From: Acidobacteriota bacterium
Lineage (GTDB): Bacteria; Acidobacteriota; JAAYUB01
DNA: 39,634 nucleotides
Direction of reading: 5' to 3'
Assembly (NCBI GenBank): GCA_012517875.1
Contig: JAAYUB010000100.1
Location: 1-39,634 of the forward strand
Shown: positions 17,988 through 24,986 of the stretch, piece after piece
Numbering within the stretch: the stretch's first letter is position 1
Layout: every line of letters begins with the position of its first letter
Notes under the pieces: model-generated
What the model was told of the DNA's origin: nothing
Database searches by the model: none
What the model saw: the letters and a program-made list of their open reading frames with translations, nothing else
Made by a program: the position numbers and the translations under genes

Positions 17988-19088
17988 ATGCTTCACATCG
18001 GCGTTCTCTTCGGCGGCAAATCGGGCGAGCACGAGGTGTCGCTGGTCTCCGGCACCACGGTGATGGCCAACCTGGACCCGGCGCGCTACCGCGTCTCCGC
18101 CATCGGCATCCGCAAGGACGGCTCCATGGCCGCGCCGGACGAGGCCCGCCGCATGCTGCAACGGCCGCTGCCCCACGTGGCGTGCCCGGCGGTCATCCTC
18201 CGTTCCGCATCGGCCGGACGCTTTCTCGAGATCGCCGCCCGCGGCACCGACGGCGTCGAGACCACCTTCGATGTCCTCTTCCCCGTGCTCCACGGCACCT
18301 ACGGCGAGGACGGCACCATCCAGGGCCTGCTGGACATGGCCGAGGTCCCGTGCGTCGGCTGCGGCGTGCTGGGCTCCGCGGCCGGCATGGACAAGGCGAT
18401 CATGAAGCAGCTCTTCGCCGCAGCCGGCCTGCCCATGGTGCCCCACCGCACCGTCACCCGCGGCGACTGGCTCGCGGACGCCGCCGCCCTGGAGCGACGC
18501 CTCCTCGACGCGCTCGGCCTGCCGCTGTTCGTCAAGCCGGCCCGCCTCGGCTCCAGCGTGGGGATCTCGAAGGTCCGGGTGGCGGCGGCGCTGGGCCCCG
18601 CGCTAGCGCTGGCGTTCGATTATGACTACAAGGTGATCGTGGAGCTGGGCGTCCCCGCCCGTGAGATCGAGTGCTCGGTCATGGGCAACCAGGCGCTGCG
18701 CGCGTCGCTGCCGGGCGAGATCCTCCCCAGCAACGAATGGTACGACTACACTGCCAAGTACGTGGACAACCGCTCCGGCCTCCTCCTCCCCGCGCCGCTT
18801 GACCCGGCGCTCACCGAGCAGGTCCGGGAACTGGCGGTCCGGGCGCTGGCCGCCATCGGCGGCGAGGGCTACGGTCGCGTGGACTTCCTCCTGGACCGCG
18901 AGACGGGCAGTCTCTACGTGAACGAGATCAACACCATCCCCGGCTTCACCGAGATCAGCATGTTCCCGAAGCTGTGGGAGCTCACCGGTGTCTCCCTGCC
19001 TGCGCTGCTCGACGAGCTGGTGCGGCTGGCCCTGGAGCGCCACGCTTGGCGCGCCGCGCTCCGCACCAGCTACGGAGGCGCGTCATGA
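17988..19088 (+). CDS. ddl: D-alanine--D-alanine ligase
   Basis: A 366-residue ATP-grasp ligase that joins two D-alanines for the peptidoglycan stem peptide in the cytoplasm. Motifs: VLFGGKSGEHEVSLVSG at the N-terminus, LFPVLHGTYGEDGTIQG, FVKPARLGSSVGISK (ATP-binding loop), NEWYDYTAKY (the omega-loop Tyr typical of D-Ala-D-Ala rather than D-Lac or D-Ser ligases), GYGRVDFLLD and NEINTIPGFTEISMFPKLWE (metal-binding Glu/Asn). Length is usual for the family. It is first in a four-gene run and overlaps the next gene by ATGA. A weak GCGAGG precedes the ATG. Confidence 0.96.
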   Translation: MLHIGVLFGGKSGEHEVSLVSGTTVMANLDPARYRVSAIGIRKDGSMAAPDEARRMLQRPLPHVACPAVILRSASAGRFLEIAARGTDGVETTFDVLFPVLHGTYGEDGTIQGLLDMAEVPCVGCGVLGSAAGMDKAIMKQLFAAAGLPMVPHRTVTRGDWLADAAALERRLLDALGLPLFVKPARLGSSVGISKVRVAAALGPALALAFDYDYKVIVELGVPAREIECSVMGNQALRASLPGEILPSNEWYDYTAKYVDNRSGLLLPAPLDPALTEQVRELAVRALAAIGGEGYGRVDFLLDRETGSLYVNEINTIPGFTEISMFPKLWELTGVSLPALLDELVRLALERHAWRAALRTSYGGAS

Positions 19089-20188
19089 CCGCCGCCGCGG
19101 ACCGGCCGCTCCCCGAAGGGAAGCTGGATCCCGACCTGCTGGCCGAGCTGCTGCGGGCGCTGCCGCCGCCCGATGCGTCGGTGGTGGTGGGTCCGGCGGT
19201 GGGCGAGGACGCCGCAGTGGTCCGGGTCGGCACCGAACTGGTGGCGCTCACCACCGACCCCATCACCTTCGTCAGTGACGACGCCGCCGCCTGGCTGGTG
19301 CAGGTCAACGCCAACGACATCGCCGCCATGGGCGCGCGACCGCGTTACCTGACGGTCACTGCGCTCTTCCCGACCGGCGCCACGGCCGCCGCGGTGCGGG
19401 ATAGCTTTCGCCGCCTCGCCGCGCACTGTCAGCGACTGGGGATCGCTCTCGTCGGCGGCCACACCGAGATCACCCGGGCGGTGACCCAACCGGTGCTGGT
19501 GGGCCAGATGGCGGGTGTCACCGACCGCCAGCGGCTGCGGCGCAGCCGCGACGCCCGGCCCGGCGACCGGATCCTGCTGGCGGGCGCCGCCGGCCGCGAG
19601 GGGAGCGCCATCCTGGCGCGGCACCGCGCGGCCGAACTGGCCGCGTTGTTCCCGGCGGAGGTGCTGGCCGATGTGGCGCGATGGGCGGAGCCGCCGGGGC
19701 TGTCGGTGGTGGACGCGGCGCTGGCGCTGGCCGAGATCGACGGCGTCCACGCGCTTCACGACGCCACCGAAGGCGGAGTGGCCGGAGCGGTGCGGGAGAT
19801 GGCGTTGGCTTCCGGCGCCGGCTGCCGTCTGGTGCTGGAGCGCATCCCGGTCCGGCCCGAGACCTGGGCCATCTGCGGCGCCCTGGGTCTGAACTGGCTG
19901 GGACTCATCAGCTCGGGCCTGCTGGTGGCCGCCGTCGCCCCGGATGCGGTGGCGCTCTGCCTGGCGGCGCTGGCGCCCCTGGGCCTGCCGGCCGCCGACG
20001 CCGGCGAGATTCTGCCCGCGGGCTGCCTATTGGAACATGGCGGCGTCGACGCTCCGCTGCCGGAGTTCGCGGTGGACGAGATCGTGAAGGGAATCGGTGA
20101 ATCGGTGAATGGGCTGGATATTGGGAACGTACAGCGTGCAAGAAGAGACGGGGAGCTGCGTCTACAGGACGAACGCTCTGAAATTTAG
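19085..20188 (+). CDS. AIR-synthase/HypE-like ATP-binding protein
   Basis: A 367-residue protein of the PurM/ThiL/HypE/SelD superfamily. The N-terminal half has VGEDAAVVRVGTE, TTDPITF and VNANDIAAMGARPRYL; the ATP-binding C-terminal half has LVGGHTEITRAV, LLAGAAGREGSAIL, LHDATEGGVAGAVREMA and ISSGLLVAAV. The closest pattern is HypE-like, but the PRxC tail that HypE uses for carbamoyl dehydration is absent, and no hydrogenase genes are nearby, so the substrate is unknown. It overlaps ddl by 4 bases. Residues from about 335 onward (after FAVDEIVK) are encoded by GAATCGGTGAATC repeat DNA and look like a non-native tail. Confidence 0.85.
   Translation: MTAAADRPLPEGKLDPDLLAELLRALPPPDASVVVGPAVGEDAAVVRVGTELVALTTDPITFVSDDAAAWLVQVNANDIAAMGARPRYLTVTALFPTGATAAAVRDSFRRLAAHCQRLGIALVGGHTEITRAVTQPVLVGQMAGVTDRQRLRRSRDARPGDRILLAGAAGREGSAILARHRAAELAALFPAEVLADVARWAEPPGLSVVDAALALAEIDGVHALHDATEGGVAGAVREMALASGAGCRLVLERIPVRPETWAICGALGLNWLGLISSGLLVAAVAPDAVALCLAALAPLGLPAADAGEILPAGCLLEHGGVDAPLPEFAVDEIVKGIGESVNGLDIGNVQRARRDGELRLQDERSEI
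20089..20112. repeat. GGTGAATC/GGTGAATG repeat inside the 3' end of a gene
   Basis: Two and a half units of the GGTGAATS repeat (GGAATCGGTGAATCGGTGAATGGG-type) lie inside the frame of the HypE-like gene, at the point where family similarity ends. The unit is the same as in the array at 6426-6480 and, inverted, at 12035-12066. Confidence 0.75.
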
Positions 20189-22019: not shown

Positions 22020-22571
22020 TTACTTCTTCGCCGGGGTCGCCGGAGCCGCCGGTGCGGCGGCGGGATAGGTCTGGTTGTAGAGGGCGATGACCGTATCCGT
22101 CACGTCGGCACCCGGGTTGAGGAAGGCGATGACCTGGGGGTTGAGGTAGAGGATCGCCGCATACTGGTTGTCCTGCGCGAATTTCTGGAACAGGGGCGCC
22201 ATCTTCGCGTTCATCCGCTTGGTGAAGTCCTCGATCCGCTGGTTGAAAGCCTTCTTCAGGTCCTCGGAGCGTCGCTTGATCTCGGTGTCCAGGGCGTCGA
22301 TCTCGCCGATCAGCTCGTCCCGCCGGGCGTCGGTGAGGACGTTCTGCTGGCTGCGGAGCTGGTTCTGCTTTTCCTCCAGCAGGCGGGCCCGTCCCCGGAC
22401 CTGGTCGTCCTGAGCCTTGGCCCAGTCCATGATCTTCTGGTACTCAGCCTTACCCTCGTCGGTGCTCACCACCGCCCGGTTGGAATCGATGAACCCGATC
22501 TTGGACTGCGCCCATGCCGGCGCCGCCAGCACCGCCAGGATCGCGATGACGCACATGCTCGCTCTGTTCAT
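22020..22571 (-). CDS. OmpH/Skp-family periplasmic chaperone
   Basis: A 183-residue exported protein. A signal peptide (MNRASMCVIAILAVLAAPAWAQ) is followed by SKIGFIDSNRAVVSTDEGK, the conserved Skp N-terminal strand. A long Lys/Glu/Arg coiled coil (about 55-125) forms the 'tentacle', then comes QDNQYAAILYLNPQ...ADVTDTVIALYN, and an Ala/Pro/Lys tail ends the protein. Family role: holding unfolded outer-membrane proteins in the periplasm, which implies a diderm cell. The start is the ATG at 22571, preceded by AAAAAGGAG. It is not next to the usual bamA or lpxD genes. A -10-like TATCAT lies on the minus strand at 22675-22680. Confidence 0.85.
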   Translation of the reverse strand: MNRASMCVIAILAVLAAPAWAQSKIGFIDSNRAVVSTDEGKAEYQKIMDWAKAQDDQVRGRARLLEEKQNQLRSQQNVLTDARRDELIGEIDALDTEIKRRSEDLKKAFNQRIEDFTKRMNAKMAPLFQKFAQDNQYAAILYLNPQVIAFLNPGADVTDTVIALYNQTYPAAAPAAPATPAKK

Positions 22572-22817
22572 GGACCGTCTCTCCTTTTTGGAATCACCCG
22601 GGGAACGGCTCGCCGGGCGCAAAATCGGCCGCCCGACGCCGGGGCCGGCGGGTCGGGCTCCGTCCCGACCGGTTATGATAACGGGCGCGACGTCGTGGTT
22701 TCAACCCTTTTGTGCTTCCCCGCCGCGGCCGAACCCAGCCGGCTGGATAGATGTACGGATCCGCCGCGGTGATGTTTCGCTTGCGCCGCCATCCGAAACG
22801 GCCGATACTGAGTCGGA

Positions 22818-22836: not shown

Positions 22837-22850
22837 GCGGCGGAGGACCC

Positions 22851-23141
22851 GTGCAGGGACGCCTGTCATCCGTATGGTTGAATGATTACATCCGCAACCG
22901 GGGCGGCGTACTCACCGTGGAACGGCGGACCGTCATCGCCGGCTGATGAAGCGCGTTCAAAGGGCCGTCAGGTCTGACGGCCGCGCCCCCGAACCCGGCG
23001 GCCTACACCCGGGTGGATCTTGCGGACGGACTCACCGTCTACCTCGCGCCCGAGGTGCTGGCCCAACTGCGCCCCGGCGTGCGGAAGCTTCTCATCCACA
23101 TCCAGGACTACGGTCGCTTCTGGCTTCACCTGGAGCCATGA
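22851..23141 (+). CDS. Small selenoprotein with tandem selenocysteines (UGA-UGA), CC/Se-motif-like
   Basis: One frame runs from GTG at 22851 (GGAGG four bases upstream) to TGA at 23139-23141, interrupted only by two adjacent TGA codons at 22944-22949. Read as selenocysteine they give a 96-residue protein with U32-U33. Before them is LNDYIRNRGGVLTVERRTVIAG; after them come SAFKGPSG, DLADGLTVYLAPEVLAQL and LLIHIQDYGRFWLHLEP. A 'YI..+GG.(L/V)T(V/I)' start, a CC or UU pair, and a closing 'G(L/I)TVY(L/V)' beta unit match what I recall of small 'CC/Se motif' (seleno)proteins of anaerobes; function unknown. A consensus bacterial SECIS hairpin follows the UGA pair directly. TTG at 22878 is an alternative start. 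No sel genes are in the window. It is convergent with the AOR gene. Confidence 0.82.
22950..22986 (+). promoter_or_regulatory. Bacterial SECIS element
   Basis: Directly after the second UGA, GGCCGTCA (22963-22970) pairs perfectly with TGACGGCC (22975-22982) around the loop GGTC. The closing A-U pair and GGUC loop reproduce the apex of the E. coli fdhF SECIS, where a CAGGUCUG core binds SelB. The loop G is 22 bases after the second UGA, inside the 16-37-base range known to work. GCGC (22951-22954) can pair with GCGC (22983-22986) to extend the stem across an internal bulge. Confidence 0.85.
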
Positions 23142-23165: not shown

Positions 23166-24986
23166 TCACGCCGGCAGCTTCGCTCGCGCGAACTCCAGGC
23201 CCAGCGCCTGGAGCTTGGCGTCGGCGGGCCGGGTGGTCGCGGGATCCCAGTCACGCTTGGCGTAGTACTCGGCCATCAGCCGGTCCCACGCGTCGCGGGC
23301 CACCACCGCGCCCTTGCGCGGACCCATCGTGAGCGGCTCCTCGAAAAAGCGATCCGGGATGCTGTCGTCGGCCCGGCGGAAGCCCTCGCGGTAGTTGAAG
23401 CACTTCTCCAGGTTGAACACCCGCTCGCCGGCGGCGACGTAATCCGCATCGACCCAGCCGCGGCCGGAGATCGATTCCAGCACCTGCTCCACCAGGCCGG
23501 CGGCGTAACCGCCCCGGGCGAAGAGGCACACGCCGACGGAATCCACCAGGGCGGTCCCGTTCTGCCGGTCGGAGGTGAATCCGTTCAGGTGGCAGGCGCC
23601 CCGGTTGGAAGTGGCGTAGCTCACTCCGTAGCCGGGCTGCACATGGACGTTCCACGCCGCGAAGCCGTGCCCCTTGCTGTGGATGGCGAACTTGGCGGTC
23701 TCGCGCCCCATCCGGCCGGCCAGGTGGCGCACGCCCCGTGCGGCGGCGTCGCCGACGCCCTCCCGGTGGGCGATCCGGTGCAGCAGCTCGATAGTGGCGT
23801 CGACGTTGCCCCAGGCCAGGTCGAGGCCGTCCAGGGCGTCCCGGTCGATGCAGCCGCGCTCGTACGCTTCCATGAGGAACCCGATCACTCCGCCCACCGA
23901 GATGATGTCGAGCCCCAGGTCGTCGGCGTGCCGGATAGCCCGCTGCACGCCGCCCAGGTCGCCGATGAGCAGGTTGGCGCCCAGCATGGTGCCGGTCTCG
24001 TATTCGGGTCCGTCGTGGACGAGACCGGGGTACGGACCGTCGGCCACGCGGCCCGCCTTCTTGCAGGCCAGCGGGCAGGCGTAGCAGGCGAAGTCCCGCT
24101 GCCAGACGGCCCGCCGCGCCGCCAGGCCGCCGATCCGCTCGATGTGCTCGAACGTCCCCTCGCGGAAGTTGCGCACCGCCTGGGTGCCGTTGTCGCTGGA
24201 TGCCACAAGCGCCGAGCCGGTGCCGTAGCGCCGCCAGTTCTCGGTGCCCGGCGTGCCGTGGAAGCCCGCGCGAGCCTTGTCCAGTGCCTCCAGGAACCGC
24301 TTATGGGCGGCCACGTCGGGCTGGCGGGAGCCGCGCACGGCGACGGCCTTCAAGTTCTTGGCGCCCATCACGCAGCCGGTGCCGGCGCGGCCGGCGGCCC
24401 GGGCCGCGGTGTTGATCACGGAGGCGTAGGGGACGAGGTTTTCACCGGCGGGGCCAATGTAGCAGGTGCGGAAGCGCCGATCGCCCAGCGCCGCAGTGAA
24501 GGCGCGGTCGAAGGCGTCGGTGCCCATTCCCCAGTACTTGCCGGCGTCGCGGATTTCCACCCGGTCGTCGTCGACGTACAGGTAGACCGGCGCCGCCGCC
24601 CGCCCCCGCACCAGGATGCCGTCGTAGCCGGCGAAGCGGATCTCCGGCCCGATGAATCCACCCATGTTCGAGTAGCTCACCGTCGACGCGTGCCGGTGGG
24701 GCGAGGCGACCGGCGCCGTGATGGGGGATTTGGTGACCACGCAGGTACGCGAAGCGGACGGCAGCGGGAAGCCGGCGAACGGCCCGGGCATGAACAGCAG
24801 CGGGTTGTCCGGCCCGAGGGGGTCGGCGCCCGGCTCGGGGAGCAGGTCCCACAGCAGCTTCATCCCGAGGCCGCGGCCGCCGATGAACTGTTCATAGTCG
24901 GCGGCGGGGATTTCCCGCCGGCCGGTGCGGCCCGTCGACAGGTCCACCTCCAAAACGGATCCCCAGTATCCCGGTAGTCGGCTCAT
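23166..24986 (-). CDS. Aldehyde:ferredoxin oxidoreductase (AOR) family tungsten enzyme
   Basis: A 606-residue AOR-family protein of normal length. The N-terminal pterin-binding domain has VLEVDLSTG, GGRGLGMKLLWD, and the block SNMGGFIGPEIRFAGYDGILVRG. The [4Fe-4S] cluster ligands are C301, C304 and C308 in CYACPLAC plus C487 in DSVGVCLF. Family role: reversible oxidation of aldehydes (or related two-electron substrates) at a tungsto-bispterin site. It overlaps the Tat-exported Fe-S protein gene upstream by 4 bases, so that protein is its likely electron partner; E. coli ydhV with its Fe-S neighbour ydhY is a comparable pairing. The AOR protein itself has no Tat signal. GGAGGTGA precedes its ATG. 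The substrate is unknown. Confidence 0.92.
   Translation of the reverse strand: MSRLPGYWGSVLEVDLSTGRTGRREIPAADYEQFIGGRGLGMKLLWDLLPEPGADPLGPDNPLLFMPGPFAGFPLPSASRTCVVTKSPITAPVASPHRHASTVSYSNMGGFIGPEIRFAGYDGILVRGRAAAPVYLYVDDDRVEIRDAGKYWGMGTDAFDRAFTAALGDRRFRTCYIGPAGENLVPYASVINTAARAAGRAGTGCVMGAKNLKAVAVRGSRQPDVAAHKRFLEALDKARAGFHGTPGTENWRRYGTGSALVASSDNGTQAVRNFREGTFEHIERIGGLAARRAVWQRDFACYACPLACKKAGRVADGPYPGLVHDGPEYETGTMLGANLLIGDLGGVQRAIRHADDLGLDIISVGGVIGFLMEAYERGCIDRDALDGLDLAWGNVDATIELLHRIAHREGVGDAAARGVRHLAGRMGRETAKFAIHSKGHGFAAWNVHVQPGYGVSYATSNRGACHLNGFTSDRQNGTALVDSVGVCLFARGGYAAGLVEQVLESISGRGWVDADYVAAGERVFNLEKCFNYREGFRRADDSIPDRFFEEPLTMGPRKGAVVARDAWDRLMAEYYAKRDWDPATTRPADAKLQALGLEFARAKLPA

Follow-up and report, generated by a model that had tools for sequence, protein, structure and literature searches.

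When a reading frame runs through two consecutive TGA codons, the question is whether both are translated, and as what. Such a frame lies in a 39,634-nucleotide stretch of DNA (the window), which is contig JAAYUB010000100.1 of the Acidobacteriota assembly GCA_012517875.1. A sequence-only reading had claimed that one frame continues through TGA-TGA at 22944-22949 to a clean stop. Translation of 22851-23141 bore this out and gives VQGRLSSVWLNDYIRNRGGVLTVERRTVIAG-U32-U33-SAFKGPSGLTAAPPNPAAYTRVDLADGLTVYLAPEVLAQLRPGVRKLLIHIQDYGRFWLHLEP-stop, where U is selenocysteine (Sec). The product is probably a cytosolic protein. It had also been claimed that ordinary gene calling breaks the frame, and the standard-code list of open reading frames indeed does not contain 22851-23141 as a single frame. 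The features of the locus are the following.

22851-23141, + strand: selenoprotein reading frame (predicted) of 96 amino acids with a GTG start and the stop codon TGA at 23139-23141; the UU pair is residues 32-33
22842-22846, + strand: Shine-Dalgarno-like GGAGG, 4 nt 5' of the GTG, kept in the orthologous locus L017
22944-22946, + strand: first in-frame UGA (putative Sec32), UGA in five of five family sequences
22947-22949, + strand: second in-frame UGA (putative Sec33), replaced by TGG (Trp) in genome G373 and kept in the other four of the five sequences
22963-22982, + strand: bSECIS-like hairpin with an 8-bp stem and the apical loop GGUC at 22971-22974
23166-24986, - strand: aldehyde ferredoxin oxidoreductase (AFOR; AFOR_N and AFOR_C domains), a convergent neighbour that also adjoins the gene in locus L041
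24983-25729, - strand: 4Fe-4S dicluster ferredoxin-type partner of the AFOR
22020-22622, - strand: OmpH/Skp-like gene, the divergent upstream neighbour

The window gene has an orthologue in the same genus of Acidobacteriota (genome G056, JAKQOW010000152.1, locus L017), which shows 86-90% identity and keeps TGATGA. Iterated profile searches over 396 Acidobacteriota genomes gave three further members, in genomes G160, G192 and G373, and these are 34-38% identical to the window protein. The G160 and G192 members have UU, with TGATGA at the same place. The G373 homologue (L040, 7852-8154) has UW, that is, TGA-TGG encoding Sec-Trp. The invariant residues of the five sequences (G31, U32, A35, G38, P39 and G41) cluster around the pair, and the loop pattern there is G-U-U-x-A-[FVT]-x-G-P-[SV]-G. 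The sequence-only reading had looked to homologues aligning across the UGA pair, and they exist: UU occurs in three lineages and UW in the fourth, and the NCBIfam model NF041239 prefers Cys at both of these columns. Four independent lineages, all of them Acidobacteriota, are known to carry the gene. A five-member profile run over the 396 genomes returned only the five known members, and the rest scored as noise. No Cys-Cys form was found in these genomes; the translations of marginal matches that we inspected were unlike the family. Searches among plasmids and viral contigs, and among solved structures, found no relatives. The UW relative implies that the second Sec is not obligatory. This suggests that the first Sec is essential and that the second is a dispensable enhancement or ligand. 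In a further genome of the window genus (G030, 90% complete, with selB), a copy of the gene was not detectable, so that it has been lost, is absent from the assembly or is patchy in the genus.

The comparison of the window gene with its L017 orthologue gave a dN/dS of 0.29 before the UGA pair and 0.26 after it (0.27 overall). The other five frames gave values from 0.50 to 4.29. Within the 42 nt after the pair, the sole change between the two copies is at a third codon position.

According to the published rules for bacterial SECIS elements, the loop has 3-9 nt with a G in its first two positions, the upper stem has 4-16 bp, the spacing is 16-37 nt and the MFE is <= -7.5 (PMC13188914). The sequence-only reading had placed a SECIS hairpin with the canonical apex directly after the TGA pair. 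We located it at 22963-22982 as GGCCGUCA-[GGUC]-UGACGGCC; its loop begins 24 nt after the first UGA and 21 nt after the second, and it lies within these limits for both codons. Hairpins within the same limits follow the pair in G160, G192 and G373, where the stems have 7-8 bp, the loops read GGU or GGUC, and the distance from the second codon to the loop is 17 nt. The hairpin of the window genus has its loop 4 nt further downstream than in the other lineages and is built from different stem bases; thus, the structure of the hairpin is kept and its sequence is not. The L017 hairpin has the same sequence as that of the window, but the minimum-energy fold of 60 nt favours another pairing. An equally strict hairpin follows only 13 of the 955 TGAs in the window. 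When synonymous codons were resampled with the protein kept (3000 trials for each of the four lineages), the hairpin reappeared 19, 190, 302 and 208 times, that is, at a rate of 0.6% for the window and 6-10% for the others. The presence of a hairpin with a GGU(C) apex in every lineage exceeds the expectation from protein constraint alone. Compared with dinucleotide shuffles, the window fold has a z of -1.45, which alone is not exceptional. Rfam gave no match in the window. The Rfam SECIS_1 model matched neither the genome of the window nor any control genome, and this search is therefore uninformative.

A double-Sec protein presupposes Sec machinery in the same genome, to which the sequence-only reading had also pointed. 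We found selA (474 bits), selB, represented by its N-terminal half at the end of a contig (320 bits, over its cut-off), a tRNA-Sec with a UCA anticodon, and selD (372 bits). The selD gene has one in-frame TGA, at the usual Sec site, in RCAGUASKM. This locus (L030; G000:C121:30705-31628, - strand) is a second selenoprotein gene in the genome, with the TGA at the catalytic position. Upstream of selB, a gene on the - strand (L001, 993-2057) suggests a putative AmrS-like radical SAM protein. All five carrier genomes have selB. This co-occurrence is weak evidence because 253 of the 396 Acidobacteriota genomes have selB.

The window protein had been linked to the CC/Se motif family. It turned out that the family was right and that strict membership was not. 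The protein matches NF041239 (CC/Se motif family) with E=6.9e-9 and 35.7 bits over residues 12-72, across both UGAs, but the curated cut-off of the model is 40 bits; it is thus a divergent relative. The segment 3' of the UGA pair alone gives E=0.021. Two of the relatives score 32.6 and 32.1 bits, and the members in G192 and G373 are unmatched by the model. The UU pair, residues 32-33, aligns with the conserved Cys/Sec columns of NF041239. With Trp or Ala in place of Cys, the score falls by 6.9 or 5.4 bits at residue 32 and by 4.3 or 3.4 bits at residue 33, which shows that the model prefers Cys in both columns. A Cys placed at residue 29 adds 1.1 bits. In the window protein this residue is Ile, so the Cys of a CxxU motif is missing.

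NF041239 (Moor_selen_rel) was first predicted in Moorella thermoacetica. The window protein resembles it as a small protein with Sec at the site and with Cys-Cys-preferring columns at residues 32-33. A 2026 review of 119 prokaryotic selenoprotein families and subfamilies enters NF041239 as CxxU with one Sec (PMC13188914). The window protein, with Ile29 and two adjacent UGAs, does not match this entry, and the adjacent UU motif is in none of the 119 (PMC13188914). In view of the UU pair, Ile29 and the sub-threshold score, it is best called a double-Sec variant near the CC/Se motif family, below its threshold. The family is already known; the adjacent UU form, as predicted from the sequences, appears new relative to the 119-family catalogue and within limited literature coverage. 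The name of NF041239 suggests that its curators were aware of Cys/Sec variation at the pair, and an unpublished UU record is conceivable.

The frame might also be no gene, or be a pseudogene or an artefact of assembly, and stay open by chance under TGA read-through. The assembly is fragmented (182 contigs), and G+C-rich DNA is rich in long chance frames. However, independent assemblies have the UGA pair in common, as well as the protein and its hairpin, the low dN/dS is confined to this frame, and the product matches a curated selenoprotein family. The conservation speaks decisively against an artefact, which every orthologue would have to share, and we regard it as highly improbable. Even less credible is an organism-wide reassignment of UGA to Trp or Gly. 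It would account for the in-frame TGAs in both the UU gene and selD, but the use of a TGA as the stop of the UU frame itself (23139-23141) already refutes it. Moreover, selD has its single in-frame TGA where Sec is normally encoded, and the genome has tRNA-Sec, SelA and SelB.

It is also conceivable that only the first UGA encodes Sec. The second would then be read as Trp or a different near-cognate residue, or would mostly terminate translation, which would yield some full-length protein beside a peptide of 32 residues that ends in Sec. In G373, Trp after the first Sec is evidently tolerated. In addition, both codons share one hairpin, and on general grounds the decoding of both is likely to be inefficient. 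Against this, three lineages keep the second UGA though TGG and TGC are one base away, NF041239 prefers Cys over Trp at the second place (35.7 vs 31.4 bits), and selection is equal before and after the pair. Thus, decoding of the first codon only is unlikely, although it deserves more weight than an artefact or a reassigned code.

The sequence-only reading had concluded that the product is a Sec-Sec protein. The homologues, the selection, the hairpins and the Sec genes together make this inference well supported computationally. Judging from the sequences, both UGAs are very probably decoded as Sec. We put at about 80% the whole reading, namely a real gene for a 96-residue Sec-Sec protein of the CC/Se kind, with both UGAs decoded via one hairpin and a likely accessory role in soft-metal(loid) or redox chemistry. 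In this mechanism SelB and tRNA-Sec would act twice in succession at the tandem UGAs. The single downstream hairpin, whose distance is permitted for each codon, would serve both. The product would carry a vicinal Sec-Sec pair where NF041239 expects Cys-Cys. If the gene is translated in this way, a single bacterial SECIS is able to direct Sec insertion twice in a row, and a vicinal diselenol or diselenide can be genetically encoded.

The gene neighbourhoods provide a functional lead for a family of unknown function, with arsenic efflux or methylation genes in two lineages and AFOR in two. In the window genus, the gene and the AFOR, with its 4Fe-4S partner, point towards each other; in the window this neighbour is convergent and not co-transcribed. 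No arsenic genes were seen beside the window's copy. In G160 (L038, 7186-8330, - strand), the UU frame and the start of a gene with only the AFOR N-terminal domain overlap. After this AFOR_N gene come NuoE- and NuoF-like genes, and moeA is nearby. The L038 locus has the appearance of a split or shortened AFOR-type complex. In G192, genes for an ArsE/MTH895-like thioredoxin and for a permease of the ArsP_1 type lead straight into the UU gene, and acr3 and arsR lie on the opposite strand from it. The closest NCBIfam model of this permease is SaoE (133.6 bits vs a cut-off of 325 bits). In G373, arsR, acr3 and arsM directly precede the UW gene in this order, and an arsC-like gene is close by. The four neighbourhoods are thus evenly divided between arsenic and AFOR.

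Many selenoproteins have been implicated in metal(loid) resistance (PMC13188914). This remark and the arsenic neighbourhoods favour metal(loid) binding, and the AFOR neighbourhoods leave a redox reading. We tentatively name as the most likely role that of an accessory protein that binds soft metal(loid)s or takes part in metal(loid)/thiol redox chemistry, at somewhat less than even odds. The Sec-Sec pair may use its two selenolates to bind As(III), or another soft ion of this kind, between them, or it may cycle as a diselenide; in the window genus, the adjacent W/Mo AFOR may be the partner of the selenoprotein. The alternative is a genuine double-Sec protein that serves as a thiol/diselenide redox relay for AFOR, or in general redox, with no metal(loid) role. 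The AFOR beside the gene in the window genus is consistent with such a relay, as is the G160 locus, where the UU frame overlaps the AFOR_N gene ahead of the NuoE- and NuoF-like genes. In addition, known selenoproteins are mostly oxidoreductases (PMC13188914). Yet two of the four lineages have the gene in arsenic loci. We consider the relay a serious possibility, though one that we would not expect to prove correct.

Selenium is already found in metal(loid) settings among the SAO-type and other arsenic selenoproteins, such as SaoC ('Cys-Cys-COOH'), the metal-binding double selenoprotein MbdU, ArsM/AhpD and ArsM/DUF2284, some of which have a CU pair or two Secs. As in those settings, two relatives of the window gene lie with acr3/arsM or with a SaoE/ArsP_1-like permease. 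However, these selenoproteins belong to protein families different from that of the window protein, and none of them has the motif UU in the review. The metal(loid)-binding role can be compared with that of the ArsD-type arsenic metallochaperone. In ArsD, a vicinal Cys pair binds As(III) for the efflux system. The Sec-Sec pair may work like it, and this is an analogy of function only, not of sequence. It is possible, though we would not wager on it, that the tandem UGAs and the one SECIS create a natural vicinal Sec-Sec site whose selenolates chelate As(III) or a similar metal(loid). Such a site would be the selenium counterpart of the vicinal-dithiol arsenic proteins.

The AlphaFold2 model, built with the five sequences, has a mean pLDDT of 78.5 and a pTM of 0.72, and the UU pair lies in a low-confidence loop (residues 27-41). 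A Foldseek search of the PDB with the predicted fold gave no match at E <= 0.001. The sequence pattern had suggested a HesB/IscA-like fold: the HesB-like selenoprotein (TIGR01911, motif UxGP) and IscA/ErpA/SufA are roughly alike with the window protein in length and in the pattern G-[CU]-...-G-...-G[LV]xVxV. We rejected this fold. The hhalign probability against IscA/ErpA/SufA was 2.5%, and there was no Foldseek, Pfam or TIGR01911 match.

Elsewhere in the window, a gene at 18974-20188 on the + strand encodes an AIR-synthase-related (AIRS/AIRS_C) protein that also has a weak selD match. Its neighbours are genes for a DUF4349 protein and a PHP-domain protein.
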